A stretch of DNA of 40,569 nucleotides from a virus. Made by a program: the position numbers and the translations under genes. This document shows, piece after piece, positions 7,557 through 40,569 of this stretch. The DNA is taken from IMG/VR virus record IMGVR_UViG_3300020005_000002, positions 1 to 40,569 of that record. One strand, 5' to 3'. The notes under the pieces were generated by a model. That model was given only the letters and a program-made list of their open reading frames with translations, was not told the origin of the DNA and did no database searches. The first letter of the stretch is position 1; each line of letters begins with the position of its first letter.

Positions 7557-7832
7557 ATGGGAGGAGTATTTATTGCGCCAAATATAAAAAGAGAGAGCGT
7601 TAGGATTGACCCGCAAGGAAACATTATCAATGCCAAGACCAGAGAAATAATCAAACCAGTAGAGCCAGAGTATATTCCGCCAGCAATACCACCAGTAATT
7701 CCAGTTGAAGAAAATGTTTTAGCCAAACTTCCACAAGAGCCTGTCAAAACAAGTAAAATAGATGAAATGATAAGTAAAAAAATAGAAGAAATTATTAACA
7801 AAAAGATTGAAGAAGCATTAAATAAATTATGA
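7557..7832 (+). CDS. Hypothetical virion-cluster protein, proline-rich with C-terminal coiled coil
   Basis: A 91-aa protein. I chose ATG 7557 over the upstream TTG 7524 because AGGGA lies at proper distance before it and because 7524 falls in the hairpin. The N-terminus is extended and polar, the middle is proline-rich (PEYIPPAIPPVIPVEE), and the end is a Lys/Glu/Ile coiled coil. No family is recognised; it may be a head decoration or connector accessory. It overlaps the next gene by ATGA. Confidence 0.65.
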   Translation: MGGVFIAPNIKRESVRIDPQGNIINAKTREIIKPVEPEYIPPAIPPVIPVEENVLAKLPQEPVKTSKIDEMISKKIEEIINKKIEEALNKL

Positions 7833-8902
7833 AAGTATATTTTATGGGGTCGTATGAGGGATGTTTTAATGTAAGATGTCTTTTCCCTTTGCAGGAGAAT
7901 GGCTGGGATGGCGACCGCACAACAATGTCATTACAGCGAATATCCCCAGAACAGAAAGCAAAAGCATTGGTGGATGCCGATGTAATCGTATTTCATCGCC
8001 CTGAAAGAGAAGAACATTTAGCCATGCTCCGAGCTTTGAAACAAGCTGGGAAAAAAATTGTGTGCGATAACGATGATACTTTTAAGGATTATGGAGGCTT
8101 CAAATTCAATGAATATATGAATGAAGAAAAGGTTAAGCGAGGATTGGGAACGCTGAATAAGAATATAGATACTTTCATTAAAGAAGCAGACCTCGTAACC
8201 TGCGCAACAGAATTTCTTAAAAAGGAATATGCAGAACTTAATCCGAATGTCGTTGTCTTGCCGAATTGTGTAGACCCTTTCTATTACCCCGAACCCCTGC
8301 GCAATGAAACGGAGATAATACGCATCGGTATAACTGGGAGTGTGGGTGTAACTTCCGATGTGGAAGCACTGAAGCCGATTATTGACCATTATCAAAATGA
8401 CCCCAGAGTGCGATTAGTCTTGTTATCGCTCCCGCCAGAGGGAGATAATGAAATATACAAACAGCTTTATGTGGATGAATACGCTTTTTGGAATAAAGTG
8501 AACATTGAATGGCACTCTTTTGTCGCTACGGATGTGTATTACGATTATCTGAATGGATTGAAACTGGATATGGTTATCATCCCGCGCGCGAATAATTATT
8601 TTAATCGTTGCAAATCCAATCTAAAGTTTTTAGAAAACTCTATGTTAAAGATTGCTACCATTGCGCAAGGATTTTCAACAGGCGATTCTCCATATCAATC
8701 AGATAAAGATGATATGGCTCACATGATAATCGCAACAGATACGCAGAGCTGGATAAATGCCATTGAAGATTTAATCAACAACAAAGAAAAACGTGTGCAA
8801 CTCGCGGAAGAAGCGTATAATTATGTTAAGGAAAAATACTCCATTGAAAAAAATGCGCACTTATGGAAACAGGCTTACGAATCTTTATTCATTAAAAAAT
8901 AA
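7829..8902 (+). CDS. GT4-like glycosyltransferase inside the virion operon
   Basis: A 357-aa GT-B-fold enzyme. The N-terminal Rossmann half includes 'DADVIVFHRP' (about residues 50-60), KKIVCDNDDT (about 73-82) and DLVTCATEFLKKEY (about 114-127); the C-terminal half begins at RIGITGSVG (about 166) and contains CKSNLKFLENSMLKIATIA (about 263-281), the place where GT4 enzymes bind the donor nucleotide. It is coupled by a 4-nt overlap to the preceding gene and sits between capsid and connector genes, so a structural protein is a likely acceptor. That is inference; host-glycan modification is the alternative. Confidence 0.75.
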   Translation: MKVYFMGSYEGCFNVRCLFPLQENGWDGDRTTMSLQRISPEQKAKALVDADVIVFHRPEREEHLAMLRALKQAGKKIVCDNDDTFKDYGGFKFNEYMNEEKVKRGLGTLNKNIDTFIKEADLVTCATEFLKKEYAELNPNVVVLPNCVDPFYYPEPLRNETEIIRIGITGSVGVTSDVEALKPIIDHYQNDPRVRLVLLSLPPEGDNEIYKQLYVDEYAFWNKVNIEWHSFVATDVYYDYLNGLKLDMVIIPRANNYFNRCKSNLKFLENSMLKIATIAQGFSTGDSPYQSDKDDMAHMIIATDTQSWINAIEDLINNKEKRVQLAEEAYNYVKEKYSIEKNAHLWKQAYESLFIKK

Positions 8903-8905
8903 CTC

Positions 8906-9439
8906 ATGATATATCCCAAAACTATTACAATAGAAAACGCAAAACTTAAAACCCTTCTGCAAAAAAAGGGAGAATTGATTACTCTCGGCAGAGAAAAATC
9001 GGTAGAAATAGAAGAACTGGAAAAACAGATGGAGGAAACTGATAAAAAGATTCAGGAAGAAGAAAAGAAAGTAAACATTGAAGACCTCCTAGAAAAGGAA
9101 AAAGTAGAAACTAAAATCGTGGAAGAATGTATTGAAAAGATGAAAGTGATTAAGCAGGGAATCTTTGACCGAATGATAAAAGAAGTGCCAGCCGAATTAC
9201 ACACAAAATATGATGAGCTTAAAAAGAAAAAAGAAGAATTGGAAACAGAACGCAACAAACTGGCGCTCAAAGCGCAGAAGTATTCAGACCGTATTATTCC
9301 TCAAGCTCGTGAAATGATGAAGCCATTTTTAACAGACCAATTCGATGATTACGATAGTTTACAATTACAAGGCGATGAGATTGTAGCAACAATATTTAAT
9401 CATTTAAATGACTTCCGCACTAACTTCAAGAAAAAATAA
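8906..9439 (+). CDS. Coiled-coil hypothetical protein
   Basis: A 177-aa protein, largely a charged coiled coil (about residues 10-125), with a globular C-terminus containing AREMMKPFLTDQFDDYDSL. No family is recognised. It lies in the virion operon immediately after the glycosyltransferase, 3 nt apart, and its stop shares a base with the following endonuclease ATG, so that endonuclease was inserted exactly between it and the connector gene. Confidence 0.7.
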   Translation: MIYPKTITIENAKLKTLLQKKGELITLGREKSVEIEELEKQMEETDKKIQEEEKKVNIEDLLEKEKVETKIVEECIEKMKVIKQGIFDRMIKEVPAELHTKYDELKKKKEELETERNKLALKAQKYSDRIIPQAREMMKPFLTDQFDDYDSLQLQGDEIVATIFNHLNDFRTNFKKK

Positions 9440-9921
9440 TGAAAAAGATTCAATTAAACAATTCAAGAAAAACCAAGAATTATAGAAAATACTTTGCATT
9501 GGTAGACGATGAGGATTTTGAATTAGTTAGTCAGTATAAATGGAGCATTAGTTCATATGGATATGCAGAATGTCGAGATTCAGAGCATAAAATTCTTGGT
9601 ATGCATAGACTCATAATACCCACTAAAAGTGGAATGAAAATTGACCACATCAATATGAATCCCTTAGATAACAGACGAGAAAATTTGCGGATATGCACTC
9701 ACCGACAGAATTTATGGAATAGAATAAAACCAACAAATAATACTTCTGGATTTAAGGGGGTGTCTTGGGAAAAGAGGCGCAATAAATGGCGAGCATCTAT
9801 TTGTAAAAACTATAAACAGTTTTCATTGGGTGAATTTTTTACAAAGAATGAAGCCGCACTTGCATATAATCGTAAAGCAAGAGAATTATTCGGTAACTTT
9901 GCAAGACTAAATACTATATGA
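9439..9921 (+). CDS. HNH endonuclease with C-terminal AP2 DNA-binding domain
   Basis: A 160-aa free-standing homing endonuclease. The HNH core is MHRLIIP (about residue 55) then KIDHINMNPLDNRRENLR (about 68-86) with RQNLWNR. The C-terminal AP2/ERF-like domain starts at NTSGFKGVSWEKRRNKWRA (about 100) and ends with the usual AALAYNRKARELFGNFARLN. The combination is well known in phages. It overlaps the genes on both sides by 1-4 nt, so its arrival did not break the operon. It should cut related phages lacking it. Confidence 0.92.
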   Translation: MKKIQLNNSRKTKNYRKYFALVDDEDFELVSQYKWSISSYGYAECRDSEHKILGMHRLIIPTKSGMKIDHINMNPLDNRRENLRICTHRQNLWNRIKPTNNTSGFKGVSWEKRRNKWRASICKNYKQFSLGEFFTKNEAALAYNRKARELFGNFARLNTI

Positions 9922-15480: not shown

Positions 15481-17946
15481 ATGCCTATATCGATGACTAG
15501 AAAAGAATATGAGTTGAAATATGGATTCGCTCCTGTTCTTCCACCTGTCTCAAATGTTGATACAACTCCATCTCCCCGCAGAATGACTAGGGCAGAATAT
15601 GAAGCGGAATTTGGCACACCCGAAACACCCAAAGAAGGATTTTTTACTAAAGCTGGTAATGCGATAAATGAGTTTAATCCTTTTTACCAAATTCCTAAAA
15701 TGGCTATTGAAGGAGCGTCTAAACTCGGAACAGGGTTAGGTGAGATATTAGACTCCAAAAGCCCTAGTGAGGTTATAAGACCCACTGTAAGTGCTCTAGC
15801 TGGCGGAACTCAAATGGCATTAGCTATTCCTTTCGGACTTTTTGAATCAGCTATCAATCTGCCTGGTGTGAAACAAGTTAAAAATTTCCTTTGGGGGACA
15901 GAACCAGGCAAAGTTACTTTACCTAATATAATAGCGGGAGTAGTGCCTGGGATAAAAGGCACTGGTGATATAAAACCATTGCAAGAATTGGTAACTAAAT
16001 ATCAAGATTCACCTGAAATAGCTGGTGATTTAATCACTCTTATTCTGGGTCTTTATGGCGTAAAAGAATTAAAAACACCTGAACTTAAACCCAATATTCA
16101 AGTGGAGTTTCAAAGGGCATACGATAAAGCAATAAAAATACCGATAGTTAAAGCTACTAAAAACAAGATAGAAACCGCTAGAGCAAACGCAGATATTAAA
16201 GCGAAAGCAAGAGAAGTTGCATACAATGCTGAAATAACTCAAGAAGTAGCGGATGAAATTGCTAATATTGAAAGTCAATATTCCAAATTAAGAAAAGCCA
16301 ATGCTTATTCTAAAGACGCCAATGCTTCAAGATTAAGAATAGCTGAAGCTGATGTTCTGCCAGGTTCAGTAGATAGCACAGGAATGATTAACTCTAAACT
16401 GGCAGTAGACGAGTATTATAAGAAAACATTGGAAGGCAAAGAAGCGGTAGTGAGAGAGAATCTTGCTTATCTTGGCGAAACAGTTACTCCGAAGCAAATT
16501 GAGAGAGATTTAACCTTAGAGATAAACCGAAGCGGATTAGAGGGAGGCGACTTGATTACCGCCCTAAATGGAATTAAAAGGGAAATACAAGGATTAAAAC
16601 TGCGAGCGGATAAGAATGGCAACATACCTTTGGAGAGTGTTCACGATGCTAAAATTAGCACGACCCGAAATATAGATTACAATACTCCACCCGAAACTAA
16701 AACTTACAGAAAAGCTAACGCAAGAGCCTACAAAAAAATTGTGGAAGATAATAGTAGTTTCAATGTAAAAGAAGTGAACACTGAACTTGCTAAATACTAT
16801 GAAGACATCACAAGATTAGAAAACCTAAATGGTAGAAAAGTCAAGGGAGGAAAACTAGGTAAATATTTCGCTCAAATATCGGGGAATATTGTCGGCGGAG
16901 CGGTAGGTAGTGCAGTTGGAGGAACAATAGGAATGGCGGCTGGGACAGTTATTGGTGGTGAAGTCGCATCTGGGTTAAGAGGCGAACAAATGGCATCTAC
17001 TTTCGGTGAACCGCGAGGATTGGAAATTCCCAAAAATCCTATTCTTGAAAGGGCTAGACTATCTGTGCCAGATAAAGTAATTAAAGCCGTAAAAGGCATA
17101 CCAAAAACCAAAGAAATCACCCAAATTGAAAAGGATATAAAGAAGAATGTGGCACAACAAGAAAAAGCCATAAAAGCTAATGATTTTACTTTAGTGGCTA
17201 AATTAAAGGAGATTTACGCTATTTTAGTAGATAAGTTGAAAGAGCTCATAAAGAGATATAAGGACACACCGAATAAAGAGGGAGGATTCATTAAGAACTC
17301 CACTGTTCCTCCTTCCACATCAGATATAACCCAAACATCAGCCCAAAAATCGCTCCTACAATCATCTGATAAGAGTAGCATACCTACTAAAAAGAGTCAA
17401 GGTTACAAGGAAACAGGCAACCTCACCACTAAAATCTTAAAAGATTTAGAAGGCAGAACCACTGTCAGCCGACAATATATACTTGATGCTACAAATCGTG
17501 GTGAATTGAAACAAGTTGAACGAGATTTAACTCGTGAAGTATTATCTACAATGGAAGGCGACACCATCAATGTCCAAGAGTTTGCAGATAAAGTGAACAT
17601 AGCAGAATTTTCTAAAAAAGAGTTTAGATACACAAACAGTATAGAACCAAATGCTACTATTGGTGAACTTCCAATATCAAGATTTGACGGCAAGGATATA
17701 TCTTCTTCACAAAATACAGTAGATAAAAAAGGAGTAAATGCTTGGAAAAAGAAAATTCAGGCAGGCGAAAGACCTTATATTTTAATTGAGTATTCAGAAC
17801 GATTAAAAACCAATAAAGTAATTGATGGACATACTCGGCTTACTGCCTATAAACAACTTGGTTTTGAAAAAGTACCAGTAATAGATAACACGAATAAAAT
17901 ACTGAAGTCCAAAACAAAAGTTACTAGCTTAATTAACTCAGAATGA
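15481..17946 (+). CDS. Large ejection-type protein with C-terminal ParB/sulfiredoxin-like domain
   Basis: An 821-aa modular protein. Two N-terminal repeats of MTRxEYExxFG (about residues 5-14 and 35-45) are followed by helices, a coiled-coil region, and a Gly/Ala-rich segment of about 30 residues (about 465-495, GGAVGSAVGGTIGMAAGTV) that resembles a membrane-inserting glycine zipper. Residues about 720-805 resemble a ParB/Srx fold: IGELPISRF, then PYILIEY and VIDGHTRLTAYKQLG. Virion 'polyvalent' proteins of this type enter the host and can act against its defences or nucleic acids; the activity here is unknown. Confidence 0.7.
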   Translation: MPISMTRKEYELKYGFAPVLPPVSNVDTTPSPRRMTRAEYEAEFGTPETPKEGFFTKAGNAINEFNPFYQIPKMAIEGASKLGTGLGEILDSKSPSEVIRPTVSALAGGTQMALAIPFGLFESAINLPGVKQVKNFLWGTEPGKVTLPNIIAGVVPGIKGTGDIKPLQELVTKYQDSPEIAGDLITLILGLYGVKELKTPELKPNIQVEFQRAYDKAIKIPIVKATKNKIETARANADIKAKAREVAYNAEITQEVADEIANIESQYSKLRKANAYSKDANASRLRIAEADVLPGSVDSTGMINSKLAVDEYYKKTLEGKEAVVRENLAYLGETVTPKQIERDLTLEINRSGLEGGDLITALNGIKREIQGLKLRADKNGNIPLESVHDAKISTTRNIDYNTPPETKTYRKANARAYKKIVEDNSSFNVKEVNTELAKYYEDITRLENLNGRKVKGGKLGKYFAQISGNIVGGAVGSAVGGTIGMAAGTVIGGEVASGLRGEQMASTFGEPRGLEIPKNPILERARLSVPDKVIKAVKGIPKTKEITQIEKDIKKNVAQQEKAIKANDFTLVAKLKEIYAILVDKLKELIKRYKDTPNKEGGFIKNSTVPPSTSDITQTSAQKSLLQSSDKSSIPTKKSQGYKETGNLTTKILKDLEGRTTVSRQYILDATNRGELKQVERDLTREVLSTMEGDTINVQEFADKVNIAEFSKKEFRYTNSIEPNATIGELPISRFDGKDISSSQNTVDKKGVNAWKKKIQAGERPYILIEYSERLKTNKVIDGHTRLTAYKQLGFEKVPVIDNTNKILKSKTKVTSLINSE

Positions 17947-21200: not shown

Positions 21201-21776
21201 ATGCCAACTGGATATGCTAAAAATGGAATAAATATAGGACAATTCACAAAAGGATTTATTCCGTGGAATAAAGGCAAAGAATTTACAGAGGAGCATAGAA
21301 AAAATTTAAGTTTGGCTCATTTGGGAAATGAGGGATACTGGCTTGGCAAAAAAAGACCAGAAGAAACTATAAAAAAGATGATTGAGAATCGTCCAAAAGG
21401 TTTGAAATGCCATATTACACCTCATACAGAAGAAACTAAAAAGAGAATGAGCTTGGTGAAGATAGGAAAACCACTATTCAGAACAGAAGAAGGAAAAAAA
21501 TCTTTTAAAGAAAAGGTGAGTGGAGAAAAAAATTGGCAATGGAAAGGGGAAAATGTAAGTTATAGAAGTTTACATAAATGGATTGAAAGACTTTTAGGGA
21601 AACCGCATGAGTGTGAAAACTGCGGTATTAAAACATTAAATCACCGCCAGTATCATTGGTCGAATATTAGCGGACTTTATAAGAGGATAATAACTGATTG
21701 GCGAAGGTTGTGTGTTAAGTGTCATAAGGCAGTTGATAAAGACCGAGTTAAATCAGAACTACAATTCCAGTATTGA
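21201..21776 (+). CDS. NUMOD3/HNH homing endonuclease
   Basis: A 191-aa protein. Residues 1-90 hold several NUMOD-type DNA-binding segments (FIPWNKGKEFTEEHRKNLSL, GYWLGKKRPEETIKKM, HTEETKKRMSLVKIGK). The HNH end is SYRSLHKWIERLLGKPHECE, CGIKTLNHRQYHWSNISGLY, then DWRRLCVKCHKAVD. The same C-terminal layout is found in the gene at 40100 and in the fragment at 31004. It is inserted between fiber and a small tail or lysis gene and shares its stop with the TTG start of the latter. Confidence 0.9.
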   Translation: MPTGYAKNGINIGQFTKGFIPWNKGKEFTEEHRKNLSLAHLGNEGYWLGKKRPEETIKKMIENRPKGLKCHITPHTEETKKRMSLVKIGKPLFRTEEGKKSFKEKVSGEKNWQWKGENVSYRSLHKWIERLLGKPHECENCGIKTLNHRQYHWSNISGLYKRIITDWRRLCVKCHKAVDKDRVKSELQFQY

Positions 21777-35979: not shown

Positions 35980-36384
35980 ATGACAGGATTCACATGCGGT
36001 GCTTGGGATGTCTGCCACGCTGGGCATCTAGTAATGTTTGAAGAATGCAAGAAACAGTGCAATTATTTAATCGTAGGATTGCAGACTGACCCGACTATTG
36101 ACAGACCAGAAAAACATAAACCAGTGCAGACTATTTTTGAGAGATATATGCAACTGCGAGCATGCAAGTTCATAGATGAGATAATACCTTATGACACAGA
36201 AGAAGATTTATATAATTTATTGGTATGTCTAAAACCCGACATCCGTTTTATGGGCGCAGACTGGAAAGATAAGCCCAATTATTCGCGGGATTTATTGCCC
36301 CAGATGAAAGTAATTTACAACAGCAGGGAACATACTTTTAGTAGTACGGAGTTAAGAAAAAGAATCTGCGATGCAAAAATATAA
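35980..36384 (+). CDS. Cytidylyltransferase (glycerol-3-phosphate / sugar type)
   Basis: A 134-aa nucleotidyltransferase with HAGH (residues 13-16) in GAWDVCHAGHLVMFEECK, then ERYMQLRACKFIDEII (about 49-64) and a closing FSSTELRKRI (about 117-126, the ISTTxLxxRI site). Length and motifs fit the TagD/HldE cytidylyl- or adenylyltransferase superfamily, which activates glycerol-3-phosphate, ribitol-like or heptose phosphates with CTP or ATP. It opens the sugar cassette; the substrate cannot be told from sequence. Confidence 0.85.
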   Translation: MTGFTCGAWDVCHAGHLVMFEECKKQCNYLIVGLQTDPTIDRPEKHKPVQTIFERYMQLRACKFIDEIIPYDTEEDLYNLLVCLKPDIRFMGADWKDKPNYSRDLLPQMKVIYNSREHTFSSTELRKRICDAKI

Positions 36385-36423: not shown

Positions 36424-36480
36424 ATGTCAAAGAATAGAAATCCTAGAGATTTACTAGATAAGTTACAAGAATATGTCTAA
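36424..36480 (+). CDS. 18-codon leader ORF overlapping the dehydratase start
   Basis: MSKNRNPRDLLDKLQEYV, starting at the expected transcription start and ending 8 nt inside the next gene. Translation of it would bring ribosomes to the dehydratase start at 36473, which lacks a Shine-Dalgarno sequence. It looks like a coupling leader. Confidence 0.5.
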   Translation: MSKNRNPRDLLDKLQEYV

Positions 36481-37474
36481 ACGCGTTTGTCTAACAGGAA
36501 TTTCGGGCTTTATTGGGGCGCATTTAATGTCCCATCTATTGAAAAATACAGACTATGAAATAATCGGCATAGCGAGTTGGCAACATAAAGGCATGCCGAC
36601 TAGGGTCGCCGAAGATGAGAATTATTTGGCAGATATAGATAGAGTAAAGATAATTACACACGATTTATCCGCTCCTTTGACTCCCGATATTATAAAGAAA
36701 ATCGGCAAAGTGGATATAATTCTAAACCTAGCCTCTGATAGTCATGTGGATAGGAGCATCATAGACCCTGTGTCCTTTGTAAAAAATAATGTAGGCGTAG
36801 CTTTGAATATGTTGGAGTTCGCCCGAATAGTAAAACCTGAATTATTTATCCAATTCTCAACCGATGAAGTTTATGGACAAGCCAAGAAAGGCGAATATCA
36901 CAAGGAGTGGGATGCTATCAAGCCCTCTAATCCATATTCAGCTTCTAAAGTGGCGCAGGAAGCACTGGCTATCTCTTACTGGAGAACCTATGGAGTTCCA
37001 GTAATCATAACCAATACGATGAATGTTTATGGTCAATATCAAAATAAAGAAAAGTTTGTGCCGTTATGTATAGATAAAATTATGAAAGGCGAAACAGTAA
37101 GCATACACGGCTACCCTGATAAACAGGAAGCTGGAACAAGATTTTATTTACATGCCAGAAATATCGCCTCCGCTATTCTATTTATGATTCAAAATGTCAT
37201 ACCTAAACCTTATCCCGAAATAGATAGACCAGAACGATTTAACGTAGTAGGCGAAGTTGAGTTGGATAATTTAGCTTTGGCTAAAAAGATAGCCAAAATA
37301 CTCGGAAAGGAATTAAAATATGAAATTGTAAGTTTCCACGCCAGCCGCCCTGGTCATGATTTGCGTTACGCTTTGGATGGACAAAAACTAAAGGATTATG
37401 GATTTAATTATCCAATAAGCTTTGAAGAAAGCTTAAAAACAACAGTGGAGTGGTATAAAAAACAATATGAATAA
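36473..37474 (+). CDS. NAD-dependent nucleotide-sugar 4,6-dehydratase/epimerase
   Basis: A 333-aa extended SDR enzyme. Rossmann loop TGISGFIGAH (Gly9, Gly12, Gly15), STDEVYG with the Thr130-Asp131-Glu132 triad of 4,6-dehydratases, and the Tyr155-x-x-x-Lys159 active-site pair in NPYSASK. The C-terminal SRPGHDLRYALDGQKLKDYG segment is typical of RmlB and GDP-mannose or UDP-sugar dehydratases. It converts an NDP-hexose to its 4-keto-6-deoxy form. It is coupled to the next gene by an 8-nt overlap. The exact nucleotide sugar is unknown. Confidence 0.88.
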   Translation: MSKRVCLTGISGFIGAHLMSHLLKNTDYEIIGIASWQHKGMPTRVAEDENYLADIDRVKIITHDLSAPLTPDIIKKIGKVDIILNLASDSHVDRSIIDPVSFVKNNVGVALNMLEFARIVKPELFIQFSTDEVYGQAKKGEYHKEWDAIKPSNPYSASKVAQEALAISYWRTYGVPVIITNTMNVYGQYQNKEKFVPLCIDKIMKGETVSIHGYPDKQEAGTRFYLHARNIASAILFMIQNVIPKPYPEIDRPERFNVVGEVELDNLALAKKIAKILGKELKYEIVSFHASRPGHDLRYALDGQKLKDYGFNYPISFEESLKTTVEWYKKQYE

Positions 37475-38333
37475 AACTATCGCGTGTGTTGTGCCAAGTC
37501 ATAAACAAGAACTCACAGATTTGTTCGTGAGCAACTGGAAAGAGTTATTTAAAAAGCACAATGTGGAGTTTATTCTAGTTAATGATAGCGAGGATATTCC
37601 CTTTATAGAATATGAGGGAAAAAGGATTGACTTAAAAAGCGAGTTAATTTCCAACCATTGCGCTGGGGTTCGCCAATTAGGATTTCTTTTTATAGCGCAA
37701 AATTTGCCAGATGTGGAATATATTTTAACCTTTGACACTGATACTTCTCCGATTGGCGACCCTATACAAGACCATATAGACCAACTTAATCATAAAGTTC
37801 CTATATCATGGCTCTCAACAGCTACAAACGCTTATATGCGGGGTTTTCCATATGGAGTGCGGGAAGAAGCGCAGACTATGTTGAGTCATGGCGTGTGGGA
37901 GGGCACACCAGATTACGATGCGCCAACCCAACTCTTAACACCAAAAGATTTTAAGCCAGAATATTACAAAGGAGTAATTCCAAAAGGTATTTTCTTTCCG
38001 ATGTGTGGGATGAATCTTTGCTTTACACGAGCCGCGCTTCCTCATATATTTTTCGCTCCAGTAGGAAATTTCAAAGGTGCGGAGAGGTGGGACGACATCA
38101 TCGCTGGAATTTATATAATAAAAGATTTCGCCAAATTAAATTGGGGGATTGTTAGTGGCTATGCAAAAGTTAATCATTTAAGAGCTTCCAATGTATTTAC
38201 TTCACTTGCAAAAGAGGCAGTTGGAATTTTGCATGGAGAGGAACTGTGGAAAGACCCAGACAATTATAATGGCGACCCGTTCTTTGAAGAATTTAGAATT
38301 AAAAGAGCTAAGTGGTACGAGTTAACAAAATGA
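37467..38333 (+). CDS. RGP/UDP-arabinopyranose mutase-like protein (GT75 family)
   Basis: A 288-aa protein that matches the reversibly glycosylated polypeptide family, known mainly from plants, where it interconverts UDP-arabinopyranose and UDP-arabinofuranose. Matching signatures in order: FDTDTSPIGDP (89-99, at the plant DDDC position), RGFPYGVRE (125-133, containing the family's sugar-accepting Arg), SHGVW (140), PDYDAPTQL (148-156), IPKGxxFPMCGMNL (171-184), RWDDIIAG (207-214) and RASNxFxxLxKE (239-250). It may supply an arabinofuranose-like donor to the next glycosyltransferase. Substrate is inferred from the family. Confidence 0.85.
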   Translation: MNKTIACVVPSHKQELTDLFVSNWKELFKKHNVEFILVNDSEDIPFIEYEGKRIDLKSELISNHCAGVRQLGFLFIAQNLPDVEYILTFDTDTSPIGDPIQDHIDQLNHKVPISWLSTATNAYMRGFPYGVREEAQTMLSHGVWEGTPDYDAPTQLLTPKDFKPEYYKGVIPKGIFFPMCGMNLCFTRAALPHIFFAPVGNFKGAERWDDIIAGIYIIKDFAKLNWGIVSGYAKVNHLRASNVFTSLAKEAVGILHGEELWKDPDNYNGDPFFEEFRIKRAKWYELTK

Positions 38334-39193
38334 TAATCTACCCAGAACAAAAGTATAAAGTAGTAGTGGTAACTCCCGCAGGGCGTGAAAAATATCTCTC
38401 TATTTTTAAGAATTTTATTTATAGAAAAATAAATGAAGGCGTAGTGGATGAGTGGCAAATTTGGCTCAACACAGTAGATGCTAATGACATTGCCTATCTT
38501 GAAAGTATGGAGCGTGAAAACCCAAAGGTGAAGATTTACAGATTAGGCGAACCGATTACTCCCACATGGGAAACATACAACGCTTTGCAGACTCATAAGT
38601 TTTTTGTAAACACGCACGATGATGATACAATTTATATAAGATTTGACGATGATATAGTCTGGTGCGCGGACGATGCGATTGAAAAAATATGCAAAGCGAG
38701 AATAGAAAATGCCAATGCTTTCTTAATAGTTCCCAATATCATAAATTCAACGTTAATGACTTCGTGGCATCAAGAGAACGGAGCATTAAGCGAGGAAGCT
38801 GGAGTAGTGAAGAAATATACAAAGAGCGACCCCGATTATGCCTATTTAGACGCTTTTAATTATACCGATGGCAGATTGATAGATTTAATCCATTCTACTT
38901 TTAAGAAACGCTATCTTGAAGGAACACTCCGTGCATATTATCTTCCCAGTAAAATTCTTTATGAGTTCCAAAGATTTTCCATTTGTTCTATTGCTTGGTG
39001 GGGAAAAGATAAACTGCGACCTGGATATATTGAAGAACCGCAGTTATCGTATCAAATCCCAGAAGCATTAGAACGTCCTAATTTCTTTTGCGGAGATAGT
39101 TTACTTTGTCACTATTCGTACCATACCCAAAGAAATTATTTAACAGCAAATGGAGATGTACACTTAGAATTTTATCGTGAAATTGTTAAATGA
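38330..39193 (+). CDS. Glycosyltransferase, GT-A type
   Basis: A 287-aa protein from ATG 38330, in a 4-nt overlap with the previous stop; GTG 38312 upstream is less likely. VVVVTPAGREKYLSIF opens the nucleotide-binding half, and two acidic clusters NTHDDDT (about 94-100) and RFDDDIVW (104-111) fit the metal-binding DxD of GT-A enzymes. The C-terminal half has Trp-rich acceptor-like segments. It is placed between the RGP-like gene and the FkbM methyltransferase, so it probably transfers the sugar made by the cassette. Confidence 0.72.
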   Translation: MIIYPEQKYKVVVVTPAGREKYLSIFKNFIYRKINEGVVDEWQIWLNTVDANDIAYLESMERENPKVKIYRLGEPITPTWETYNALQTHKFFVNTHDDDTIYIRFDDDIVWCADDAIEKICKARIENANAFLIVPNIINSTLMTSWHQENGALSEEAGVVKKYTKSDPDYAYLDAFNYTDGRLIDLIHSTFKKRYLEGTLRAYYLPSKILYEFQRFSICSIAWWGKDKLRPGYIEEPQLSYQIPEALERPNFFCGDSLLCHYSYHTQRNYLTANGDVHLEFYREIVK

Positions 39194-39351
39194 ATTTAGA
39201 GAAATTTAATTTATTATGGGCGGAAAAAGCGGAGCACACTTTCACACAGGAAGAATTAGACAAAGAGCTAGGTGAAAAGCCAAATCTTTTTAAGAGTTAT
39301 TATTTAATGGAACAATTAGCAAAAAAATATCATGTTAAAAGCATCAGATGA
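39190..39351 (+). CDS. Small helical protein in sugar cassette
   Basis: A 53-aa protein (LLWAEKAEHTFTQEELDKEL, then KSYYLMEQLAKKYHVKS) that overlaps the previous gene by 4 nt and the next by 20 nt. No family is recognised; it may help translational coupling. Confidence 0.55.
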   Translation: MNLEKFNLLWAEKAEHTFTQEELDKELGEKPNLFKSYYLMEQLAKKYHVKSIR

Positions 39352-40072
39352 ATTGCGTTTATGCGCAGATGCGCACGAAACTGCCGTGATAACCGAAGAC
39401 GAATATCGCATAGAAGAACTATATGGTTTGGATAAAGATATTGAATACATTGCAGACCTCGGAGCGAATATCGGTTCGGCAAGCGTGCAATTTCAAAAGT
39501 TCTTTCCGAACGCTAAAATCCTCGTCTGCGAACCAGAACCAGAACTAATGAAATACACTAAATTAAACACAGAGGATAAATTGATTTATGTGGAAGAAGC
39601 AATCATCGGAGATGATAGAAAGGAAGTAACATTTAACATTTGCAAATGGCAGGGCAATCATCATGTAGATGGAAACTTCAGATGGGATTTATTCGCTCCA
39701 ATGGGAAGCAAGAAGATAGGAGAGATAAAAGTCAAAGCGTCTACTCTAAAGGACATAATGGACAGATATGAATTTCCGCGAATTGATTTAATAAAACTGG
39801 ACACCGAAGGAATGGAAGGGCAGATACTCCGAGCTTTCAAGCCGTATATGGATAAAATAAAACACATAAGAGGAGAATGGCATGGAGATGCGGATAGAGA
39901 GATAATCAGAGAGGCGTTGAAAGACACGCATGAGATTTTCTTTGATAGAAAACTTACCACGCATGGAGGCATATTCGCTGTTAGAAAAGATATTCCTGTT
40001 AAGACGATAGAATATGACGGATATAAAGTGATTAAAAGAATTGGTTTGCCTGATACAGTTCAAACGATATGA
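39332..40072 (+). CDS. FkbM-family methyltransferase
   Basis: A 246-aa SAM-dependent O-methyltransferase. Motif I is IADLGANIGSASVQFQKFFP (about residues 40-59), followed by ILVCEPEPE, and the FkbM hallmark RIDLIKLDTEGMEGQIL (about 149-166). Family members methylate hydroxyls on sugars and natural products. As the last enzyme of the cassette it could cap the sugar with a methyl group, protecting the glycan or changing receptor properties. Confidence 0.88.
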   Translation: MLKASDELRLCADAHETAVITEDEYRIEELYGLDKDIEYIADLGANIGSASVQFQKFFPNAKILVCEPEPELMKYTKLNTEDKLIYVEEAIIGDDRKEVTFNICKWQGNHHVDGNFRWDLFAPMGSKKIGEIKVKASTLKDIMDRYEFPRIDLIKLDTEGMEGQILRAFKPYMDKIKHIRGEWHGDADREIIREALKDTHEIFFDRKLTTHGGIFAVRKDIPVKTIEYDGYKVIKRIGLPDTVQTI

Positions 40073-40099: not shown

Positions 40100-40569
40100 A
40101 TGCCAACAGGGATATATCAACGCAAATCAACACAAGGTTTTCAAAAAGGCAAAGGTTATTGGACTGGTAAAAAACGACCACCTTTCTCTAAAGAATGGAA
40201 AGAAAAAATCAGTAAAAATAATGCTCGCCATAATTTAGGTAAAAAACTTTCAGTAATAACTATACAGAAAATAAGTGAAAATAGAAAAGGCATTCCAGCT
40301 TGGAATAAAGATATCAAAGTTCCTCAAATGACTGGAGAGAAACATTTTGCTTGGCTTGGTGATGATGTGGGCTATGATGCATTGCACAAATGGGTTGTAA
40401 GAAATTTAGGGACACCAGATACTTGTGAAGAATGTGGTCGGTCAGGTCATCAAATCCATTGGGCGAATAAAGACCACGAATACAAAAGAAATTTAGAGGA
40501 TTGGATTCGGCTATGTGTAAAGTGTCATCAACTTTACGATATTAAAAATAATGATTACCAATTCACCAG
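40100..40569 (+). CDS. NUMOD3/HNH homing endonuclease, N-terminal part (continues at 1)
   Basis: The frame from ATG 40100 runs to the window end and continues at base 3 to 131, 157 aa in all. N-terminal NUMOD-type repeats (FQKGKGYWTGKKRPPFSKEW, HNLGKKLSVITIQKISENRK, AWNKD) are followed by the HNH end GYDALHKWVVRNLGTPDTCE, CGRSGHQIHWANKDHEYK and WIRLCVKCHQLYD. It shares this end with 21201-21776 and the remnant at 31004. It is inserted between the sugar cassette and the glycosyltransferase-like gene at 128. Confidence 0.87.
   Translation, partial: MPTGIYQRKSTQGFQKGKGYWTGKKRPPFSKEWKEKISKNNARHNLGKKLSVITIQKISENRKGIPAWNKDIKVPQMTGEKHFAWLGDDVGYDALHKWVVRNLGTPDTCEECGRSGHQIHWANKDHEYKRNLEDWIRLCVKCHQLYDIKNNDYQFT
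40443..40569. repeat. Terminal direct repeat, right copy
   Basis: Exact copy of bases 1-127. Removing one copy gives a 40,442-bp circle and an intact 157-aa endonuclease frame. Confidence 0.9.

Follow-up and report, generated by a model that had tools for sequence, protein, structure and literature searches.

What would a phage make with a gene of the reversibly glycosylated polypeptide (RGP) family, GT75? Among glycosyltransferase families it is described as unique in doubling as an NDP-pyranose mutase, and the members characterized at the time of that account were the plant ones and two bacterial ones (PMC9937993). Soil microbiomes are one reported source of phage-encoded GT75 (PMC12016548, which cites Xu et al. 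2024 PNAS); the citing passage mentions the family on phage contigs alone and gives no anatomy, cassette or mechanism. Groundwater viruses have also been found enriched in nucleotide-sugar genes, GDP-mannose 4,6-dehydratase among them (PMC10980836). Our literature search found no paper on the mechanism, cassette or assay of a phage GT75. Phage GT75 as such is already in print.

The viral record and the family of the encoded protein

The DNA analyzed, here called the window, is the viral record IMGVR_UViG_3300020005_000002, of environmental metagenome origin, at its full length of 40,569 bases. An exact direct repeat of 127 nt was found at both ends (1-127 and 40443-40569), and the window therefore looks like a complete phage genome, about 40,442 bp long and probably circularly permuted or assembled with an end repeat. 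The phage origin assumed in an earlier sequence-only reading of this DNA is borne out by the viral record, the end repeat, and the presence of terminase, tail fibre, and endolysin genes. Relatives of the terminase occur across many hosts, with the best match (46%) to Flavobacterium phages; in FpV9, the sole one of these inspected, no sugar cassette is annotated next to the terminase. Elsewhere in the window, positions 9439-9918 encode an AP2 domain with an HNH endonuclease of the homing type, and positions 15481-17946, in the structural gene region, encode a protein of 821 aa with a weak C-terminal match to ParB-like families.

The gene in question (37467-38333, plus strand) runs uninterrupted from ATG to stop and encodes 288 aa, while the opposite strand carries stops throughout and offers no competing long in-register reading. 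Checking the sequence recovered the intact frame and every motif that had been quoted for it. The metal-binding DxD lies in FDTDT (aa 89-93; 37731-37745, plus strand), where D90 corresponds to D109, T91 to D110, and D92 to the Mn ligand D111 of MtdL, a GT75 enzyme from Marinactinospora thermotolerans. RGFPYGVRE (aa 125-133; 37839-37865, plus strand) begins with R125, which aligns with MtdL R159 and OsUAM1 R158, the Arg that becomes covalently linked to sugar in self-glycosylation. The stretch H237-L-R239-A (38175-38186, plus strand) holds the equivalents of the Mn ligand H287 and the diphosphate contact R289. The remaining motifs are PDYDAPTQL (148-156), FPMCGMNL (177-184), RWDDIIAG (207-214), and RASN (239-242).

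The protein matched Pfam RGP (PF03214) with E=3.6e-28 and 99.2 bits, well above the 23.8-bit cut-off, as the earlier assignment to GT75 would have it. A profile built from 22 viral sequences retrieved rice UAM2 (8cid; 1.4e-35) and MtdL (9e-27) from the PDB and nothing else notable; searches of PHROGs and NCBIfam with the protein assigned no family. The AlphaFold (AF2) model had a pLDDT of 88.4, with values below 50 in the loop 115-131 that bears R125. Its best structural matches were MtdL and rice UAM2, each at Z 24.8 in alignments of 271-273 residues that span the whole model, and the model contains the GT-A N-terminal domain, the RGP-specific core, and the C-terminal helices seen in both. 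The next fold family was GlfT2 at Z 13.9 (10.9 lower), and all other GT-A proteins scored at or below 13.9; a search for a better match to another GT-A family thus left GT75 in first place. Because of the profile match and this gap in structural similarity, membership of the phage protein in GT75 is firm.

Catalytic residues and nucleotide-sugar contacts

Structures and mutants of MtdL define the working residues of GT75 (PMC9937993), and these were mapped onto the phage protein by profile alignment. MtdL D109/D111 correspond to D90/D92, R159 to R125, D195 to D149, R257 to R207, D260 to D210, H287 to H237, and R289 to R239, giving the phage protein the same catalytic set as MtdL (R159/D195/R257/D260/H287/DxD). 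R125, D149, D210, H237, and D92 are each present in 78/78 phage homologues; D90 is found in 77/78, and position 207 is Arg in 66 and Gln in 12. R125 was also kept in 22/22 cellular homologues, and the conservation of the self-glycosylated Arg proposed by the sequence-only reading is upheld. It was noted that all positions at which a change abolished MtdL activity are retained except D87 (here Ala) and Q229 (here Met; Ile in rice). OsUAM2 (8cid), reported to have no activity, carries N in place of D111, T in place of R257, and R in place of H287, whereas the phage protein retains all three residues. The DDDC motif had been described as changed to FDTDT, which is correct for the middle Asp (T91; Thr in 14/78 phage proteins), but the motif is not lost, with its first and third Asp kept. 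The middle Asp of the DDD in MtdL, D110, contacts ribose (PMC9937993).

The most marked change concerns residue 66. MtdL D87 contacts the sugar C4-OH, its replacement abolishes MtdL activity, and mutants at this site lost mutase activity in both MtdL and AtRGP2 (PMC9937993). Residue 66 of the phage protein is Ala, compared to Asp in MtdL and Ser in the active plant enzymes; across the 78 phage proteins it is A in 27, S in 24, D in 22, and other residues in the rest. As far as the alignment goes, Ala at this site is a real departure from the known GT75 enzymes. Raw counts tied Ala at residue 66 to a neighboring 4,6-dehydratase (17/32 with Ala against 2/68 of the others), but the association failed on independent tree pairs and is a lead only.

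Four positions distinguish GDP-using MtdL from the UDP-using plant enzymes (MtdL 13, 42, 86, and 87; PMC9937993). The plant state is P, D, D, S and that of MtdL is T13, N42, S86, D87, while the window has P10, E42, C65, and A66, which is the plant state at one of the four sites (P10) and the MtdL state at none. Taken together, the base-contact residues P10, E42, and C65 follow the pattern of neither the GDP-using nor the UDP-using enzymes. Compared to MtdL, the phage protein is about 20% identical and about 90 aa shorter, and differs in its base contacts as well as in D87 to Ala, Q229 to Met, and D110 to Thr. With the plant UAM/RGP proteins (OsUAM1, OsUAM3, AtRGP1-3) it shares the RGxPxxxRE Arg loop, Gly at the MtdL S228 position (G181), and Pro at T13; it differs from them at three of the four selectivity positions, in its shorter C-terminal region, and apparently in lacking close kinship, in a tree that holds a single plant sequence.

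Kinship of the phage proteins and exchange within the gene

We assessed the distribution of related proteins among viruses and cells. A first IMG/VR scan returned 24 relatives, 19 of them at 44-77% identity over the best segment, and the INPHARED phage collection held one distant relative (32%). In a tree of 102 sequences, the window falls inside a 51-row clade (SH-aLRT 100; stem of 1.26 changes per column) made up of 49 viral records and two MAG contigs. The C-terminus is shorter in this clade, with a median of 51 residues from the H237 equivalent to the end compared to 76 in the other homologues. GT75 is rare in the cells sampled, being found in 2/286 and 9/294 genomes of the two phyla covered. 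The cellular relatives encountered were CPR, Planctomycetota, Chloroflexota, and Acidobacteriota sequences. Haloarchaeal and bacterial RGP proteins of chromosomes and plasmids, named 'alpha-1,4-glucan-protein synthase', belong to the same Pfam RGP family; they are 24-33% identical, about 317-394 aa long in the two inspected, and lack the phage cassette.

The sequence-only reading had called the protein plant-type. Its fold is equally near bacterial MtdL and rice UAM2, and the sole plant sequence in the tree (8cid), on a long branch of 3.28, lies outside the virus-dominated clade; 'plant-type' thus appears to describe the motifs and not descent. Capture of a plant gene by a phage was rejected as an origin, given that the nearest homologues are from phages and the cellular relatives are from the bacterial groups listed above. 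Separately, it was noted that two phage-clade GT75 genes lie on contigs binned as Saccharimonadales (L029, 39 kb) and as a bacterium (L030, 528 kb). These contigs may be phage or prophage DNA within MAGs and could hint at hosts.

Comparison with close relatives revealed a replacement inside the gene itself. The identity of the window to the DNA of relatives L001 and L002 is about 92-96% in much of the half that codes for the N-terminus (about 37500-37790), about 62-71% across the remainder of the GT75 gene, and about 97% again where the glycosyltransferase gene begins. Compared to L002, positions 37790-38320 comprise a replaced core half of GT75 between flanking genes that are about 95% identical. 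Trees of the two halves conflict: the N half rejects a grouping of the window with L004 (p-AU 1.7e-5), and the C half rejects one of the window with L001 (p-AU 4e-47), both groups having been picked after the identities were seen. From the drop in identity and the conflicting trees it follows that the sugar-binding core was exchanged between close phage relatives, with the nucleotide-binding half unchanged. One possible reason is a change of sugar; another is plain phage mosaicism, since identity dips elsewhere in the cassette too.

The sugar cassette and its proposed product

The genes around GT75 form a sugar cassette near the right end of the window, and on the circle the terminase gene (1067-2260) comes next. 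A nucleotidyltransferase of the glycerol-3-P cytidylyltransferase / HldE C-domain superfamily with an HxGH motif (35980-36384, plus strand; PF01467 1.2e-13; phrog_7878 8e-35) is a possible NDP-sugar maker; it falls in the CTP/ATP-using HxGH group and matches TIGR01518 and TIGR02199 at about 1e-17, below cut-off. An NDP-hexose 4,6-dehydratase-like SDR (36473-37474, plus strand) overlaps the GT75 start by 8 nt and carries the active-site motifs FSTDEVYG and YSASK, with the active-site motif present in 13/13 close relatives. Its nearest PDB matches are dTDP-glucose 4,6-dehydratases (3e-44), and its TIGR01181 match (4e-66, 223 bits) is under the 365-bit equivalog cut-off for dTDP-glucose 4,6-dehydratase (RmlB). 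With its TDE and YxxxK residues, it may work like a 4,6-dehydratase on another substrate; because the SDR and the nucleotidyltransferase both score below equivalog cut-offs, their substrates are guesses.

Downstream of GT75 lies a GT-A-fold glycosyltransferase with an FDDD motif and no Pfam family (38330-39193, plus strand, with GTG at 38312 as an alternative start; AF2 pLDDT 90.3; phrog_4447 1e-8), a candidate acceptor transferase. A structural search for its family gave many GT-A enzymes tied at Z 13-14.4 and no prominent furanosyltransferase, which proves nothing on its donor. It is followed by an FkbM-family methyltransferase (39332-40072, plus strand; PF05050 1.9e-12; TIGR01444 3e-20, above cut-off), a candidate sugar O-methyltransferase. 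The dehydratase, glycosyltransferase, and methyltransferase neighbors named by the sequence-only reading were thus all recovered in profile searches. Outside the cassette, a second, GT4-like glycosyltransferase (7829-8902, plus strand; phrog_7162 4e-31; PF13439 weak, under cut-off) possibly serves the same glycan.

The order of SDR, GT75, GT-A glycosyltransferase, and FkbM genes was found, apart from inserted genes, in all 13 nearest homologues (the window, L001, L003-L012, and L073), mostly just upstream of the terminase; the GT-A glycosyltransferase is of the same family in each. The nucleotidyltransferase precedes these genes in 6/13. In four (L004-L007), a HAD-type protein related to phosphoglucomutase/phosphomannomutase lies between the nucleotidyltransferase and the SDR (L005:1549-2190, L004:6342-6998, L007:1431-2084, L006:6333-6983; Pfam PMM 8.8e-6; 4bnd 3.5e-14 for L007). 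The wider phage relatives carry SDRs of other kinds, GT2-like enzymes, methyltransferases, or a UDP-sugar dehydrogenase. By eye, a small cupin-like protein, possibly a sugar isomerase, was also seen between the SDR and GT75 genes at L007:3084-3410. A zinc-finger/HNH-like endonuclease (159 aa when joined) adjoins the window's cassette, running from 40100-40442 on to about 137 across the end repeat; a relative lies at 21201-21776, and several related phages have similar ORFs within their cassettes or next to them. These endonucleases may help move cassettes.

With moderate confidence, we consider the gene to encode an active, shortened GT75 that makes an NDP-hexofuranose for the glycan pathway of the phage's own cassette. 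By analogy with MtdL, the protein is probably an NDP-pyranose/furanose mutase that depends on metal and works through a covalent Arg: an NDP-hexopyranose would be bound with Mn/Mg by D90, D92, and H237, the R125 guanidine would attack C1 to give a covalent Arg-sugar, D210 would open the ring as acid/base with the aid of D149 and R207, and reclosure on O4 would release the NDP-hexofuranose. FAD-dependent UDP-galactopyranose mutase (Glf) catalyzes a reaction of this kind and likewise forms a covalent adduct between enzyme and sugar (PMC9937993), but it is a different protein that uses FADH N5 where GT75 uses Mn/Mg and Arg. The bacterial GT75 mutases MtdL and Hyg20 (Streptomyces hygroscopicus) are encoded in an antibiotic gene cluster, unlike the phage gene in its phage cassette. 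Both act on GDP-L-fucose, a 6-deoxyhexose (PMC9937993), which fits a 6-deoxyhexose reading of the phage cassette.

In the pathway we infer, the nucleotidyltransferase, with the phosphohexomutase-like protein in some relatives, would make an NDP-hexose from a phosphohexose, and the SDR would convert it to the 4-keto-6-deoxy form. A ketoreductase from outside the cassette, perhaps a host enzyme, would restore O4 before GT75 contracts the ring; the GT-A protein would then transfer the furanose, possibly to a virion protein or to the host surface, and the FkbM enzyme would methylate it. A furanose-type product, as suggested earlier, is a reasonable expectation, and we would expect a methylated furanose, with a 6-deoxyhexofuranose more likely than arabinose. 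The weak step is the ketoreductase, as furanose closure needs O4 and a 4-keto sugar cannot close through it; no 4-ketoreductase was seen in the cassette. The host may supply this enzyme, GT75 may take another sugar, or GT75 may only self-glycosylate. Ala at the MtdL D87 position and the low-confidence modeling of the R125 loop also count against the proposed mechanism. DNA hypermodification was considered as a glycan target; the annotated ORFs include no base hydroxylase or hydroxymethylase, and many ORFs are without a match.

Other roles for the protein were weighed against an active hexose mutase. It could self-glycosylate on R125 without ring contraction, acting as a reversible carrier or primer that hands the Arg-linked sugar to the neighboring glycosyltransferase. 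AtRGP2 with UDP-glucose does show glycosyltransferase and not mutase activity (PMC9937993), and Ala replaces the residue that assists the C4-OH, which the upstream SDR should remove; yet D149, D210, and R207, the acid/base and sugar-pocket residues required of a mutase, are retained, and residue 66 varies among A, S, and D in proteins whose remaining catalytic residues are intact. We regard this role as unlikely. A true plant-like UDP-arabinopyranose mutase making UDP-L-arabinofuranose would account for P10 at the base site, G181 at the sugar site, and a motif order like that of plant RGPs. The sequence-only reading had named UDP-arabinofuranose as the plant product; for the phage enzyme it looks improbable: three of the four base and sugar selectivity positions differ from the plant enzymes, and the cassette has a hexose 4,6-dehydratase-like SDR and no recognized UDP-xylose synthase or arabinose epimerase.

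It is quite improbable that the protein is a catalytically dead scaffold for the other cassette enzymes, in the manner of OsUAM2 or AtRGP5. Some plant members show neither UAM nor RGP activity (PMC9937993), and the phage protein departs from MtdL at residue 66 (D87) and in the middle of the DxD, but the metal ligands and essential Arg and Asp residues are invariant or nearly so in the 78 phage homologues, where OsUAM2 lost several. An ordinary GT-A glycosyltransferase that merely resembles GT75 is barely credible; the protein shares its Rossmann half with many GT-A families (Z up to 13.9), whereas the full-length match to GT75 structures and the retained RGP core motifs and Arg set it apart. 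As far as family membership is concerned, the fold and the profile match already refute this reading.

Returning to the active hexose mutase, a phage carrying the GT75 cassette probably builds its own unusual sugar decoration. More speculatively, the widespread phage branch could be a compact mutase that turns NDP-6-deoxyhexoses or 4-keto sugars into methylated furanoses destined for virion or host-surface glycans, its sugar-binding core being swapped by recombination to change the sugar; direct action on 4-keto sugars would call for a chemistry that does not close the ring through O4. With its catalytic residues kept, its chain shortened, and its sugar contacts varied, this large viral branch of GT75 offers natural variants for probing how a covalent-Arg enzyme selects its sugar. 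It also draws attention to phages that supply most of the pathway for a methylated furanose themselves, a decoration that host defenses or receptors might read.
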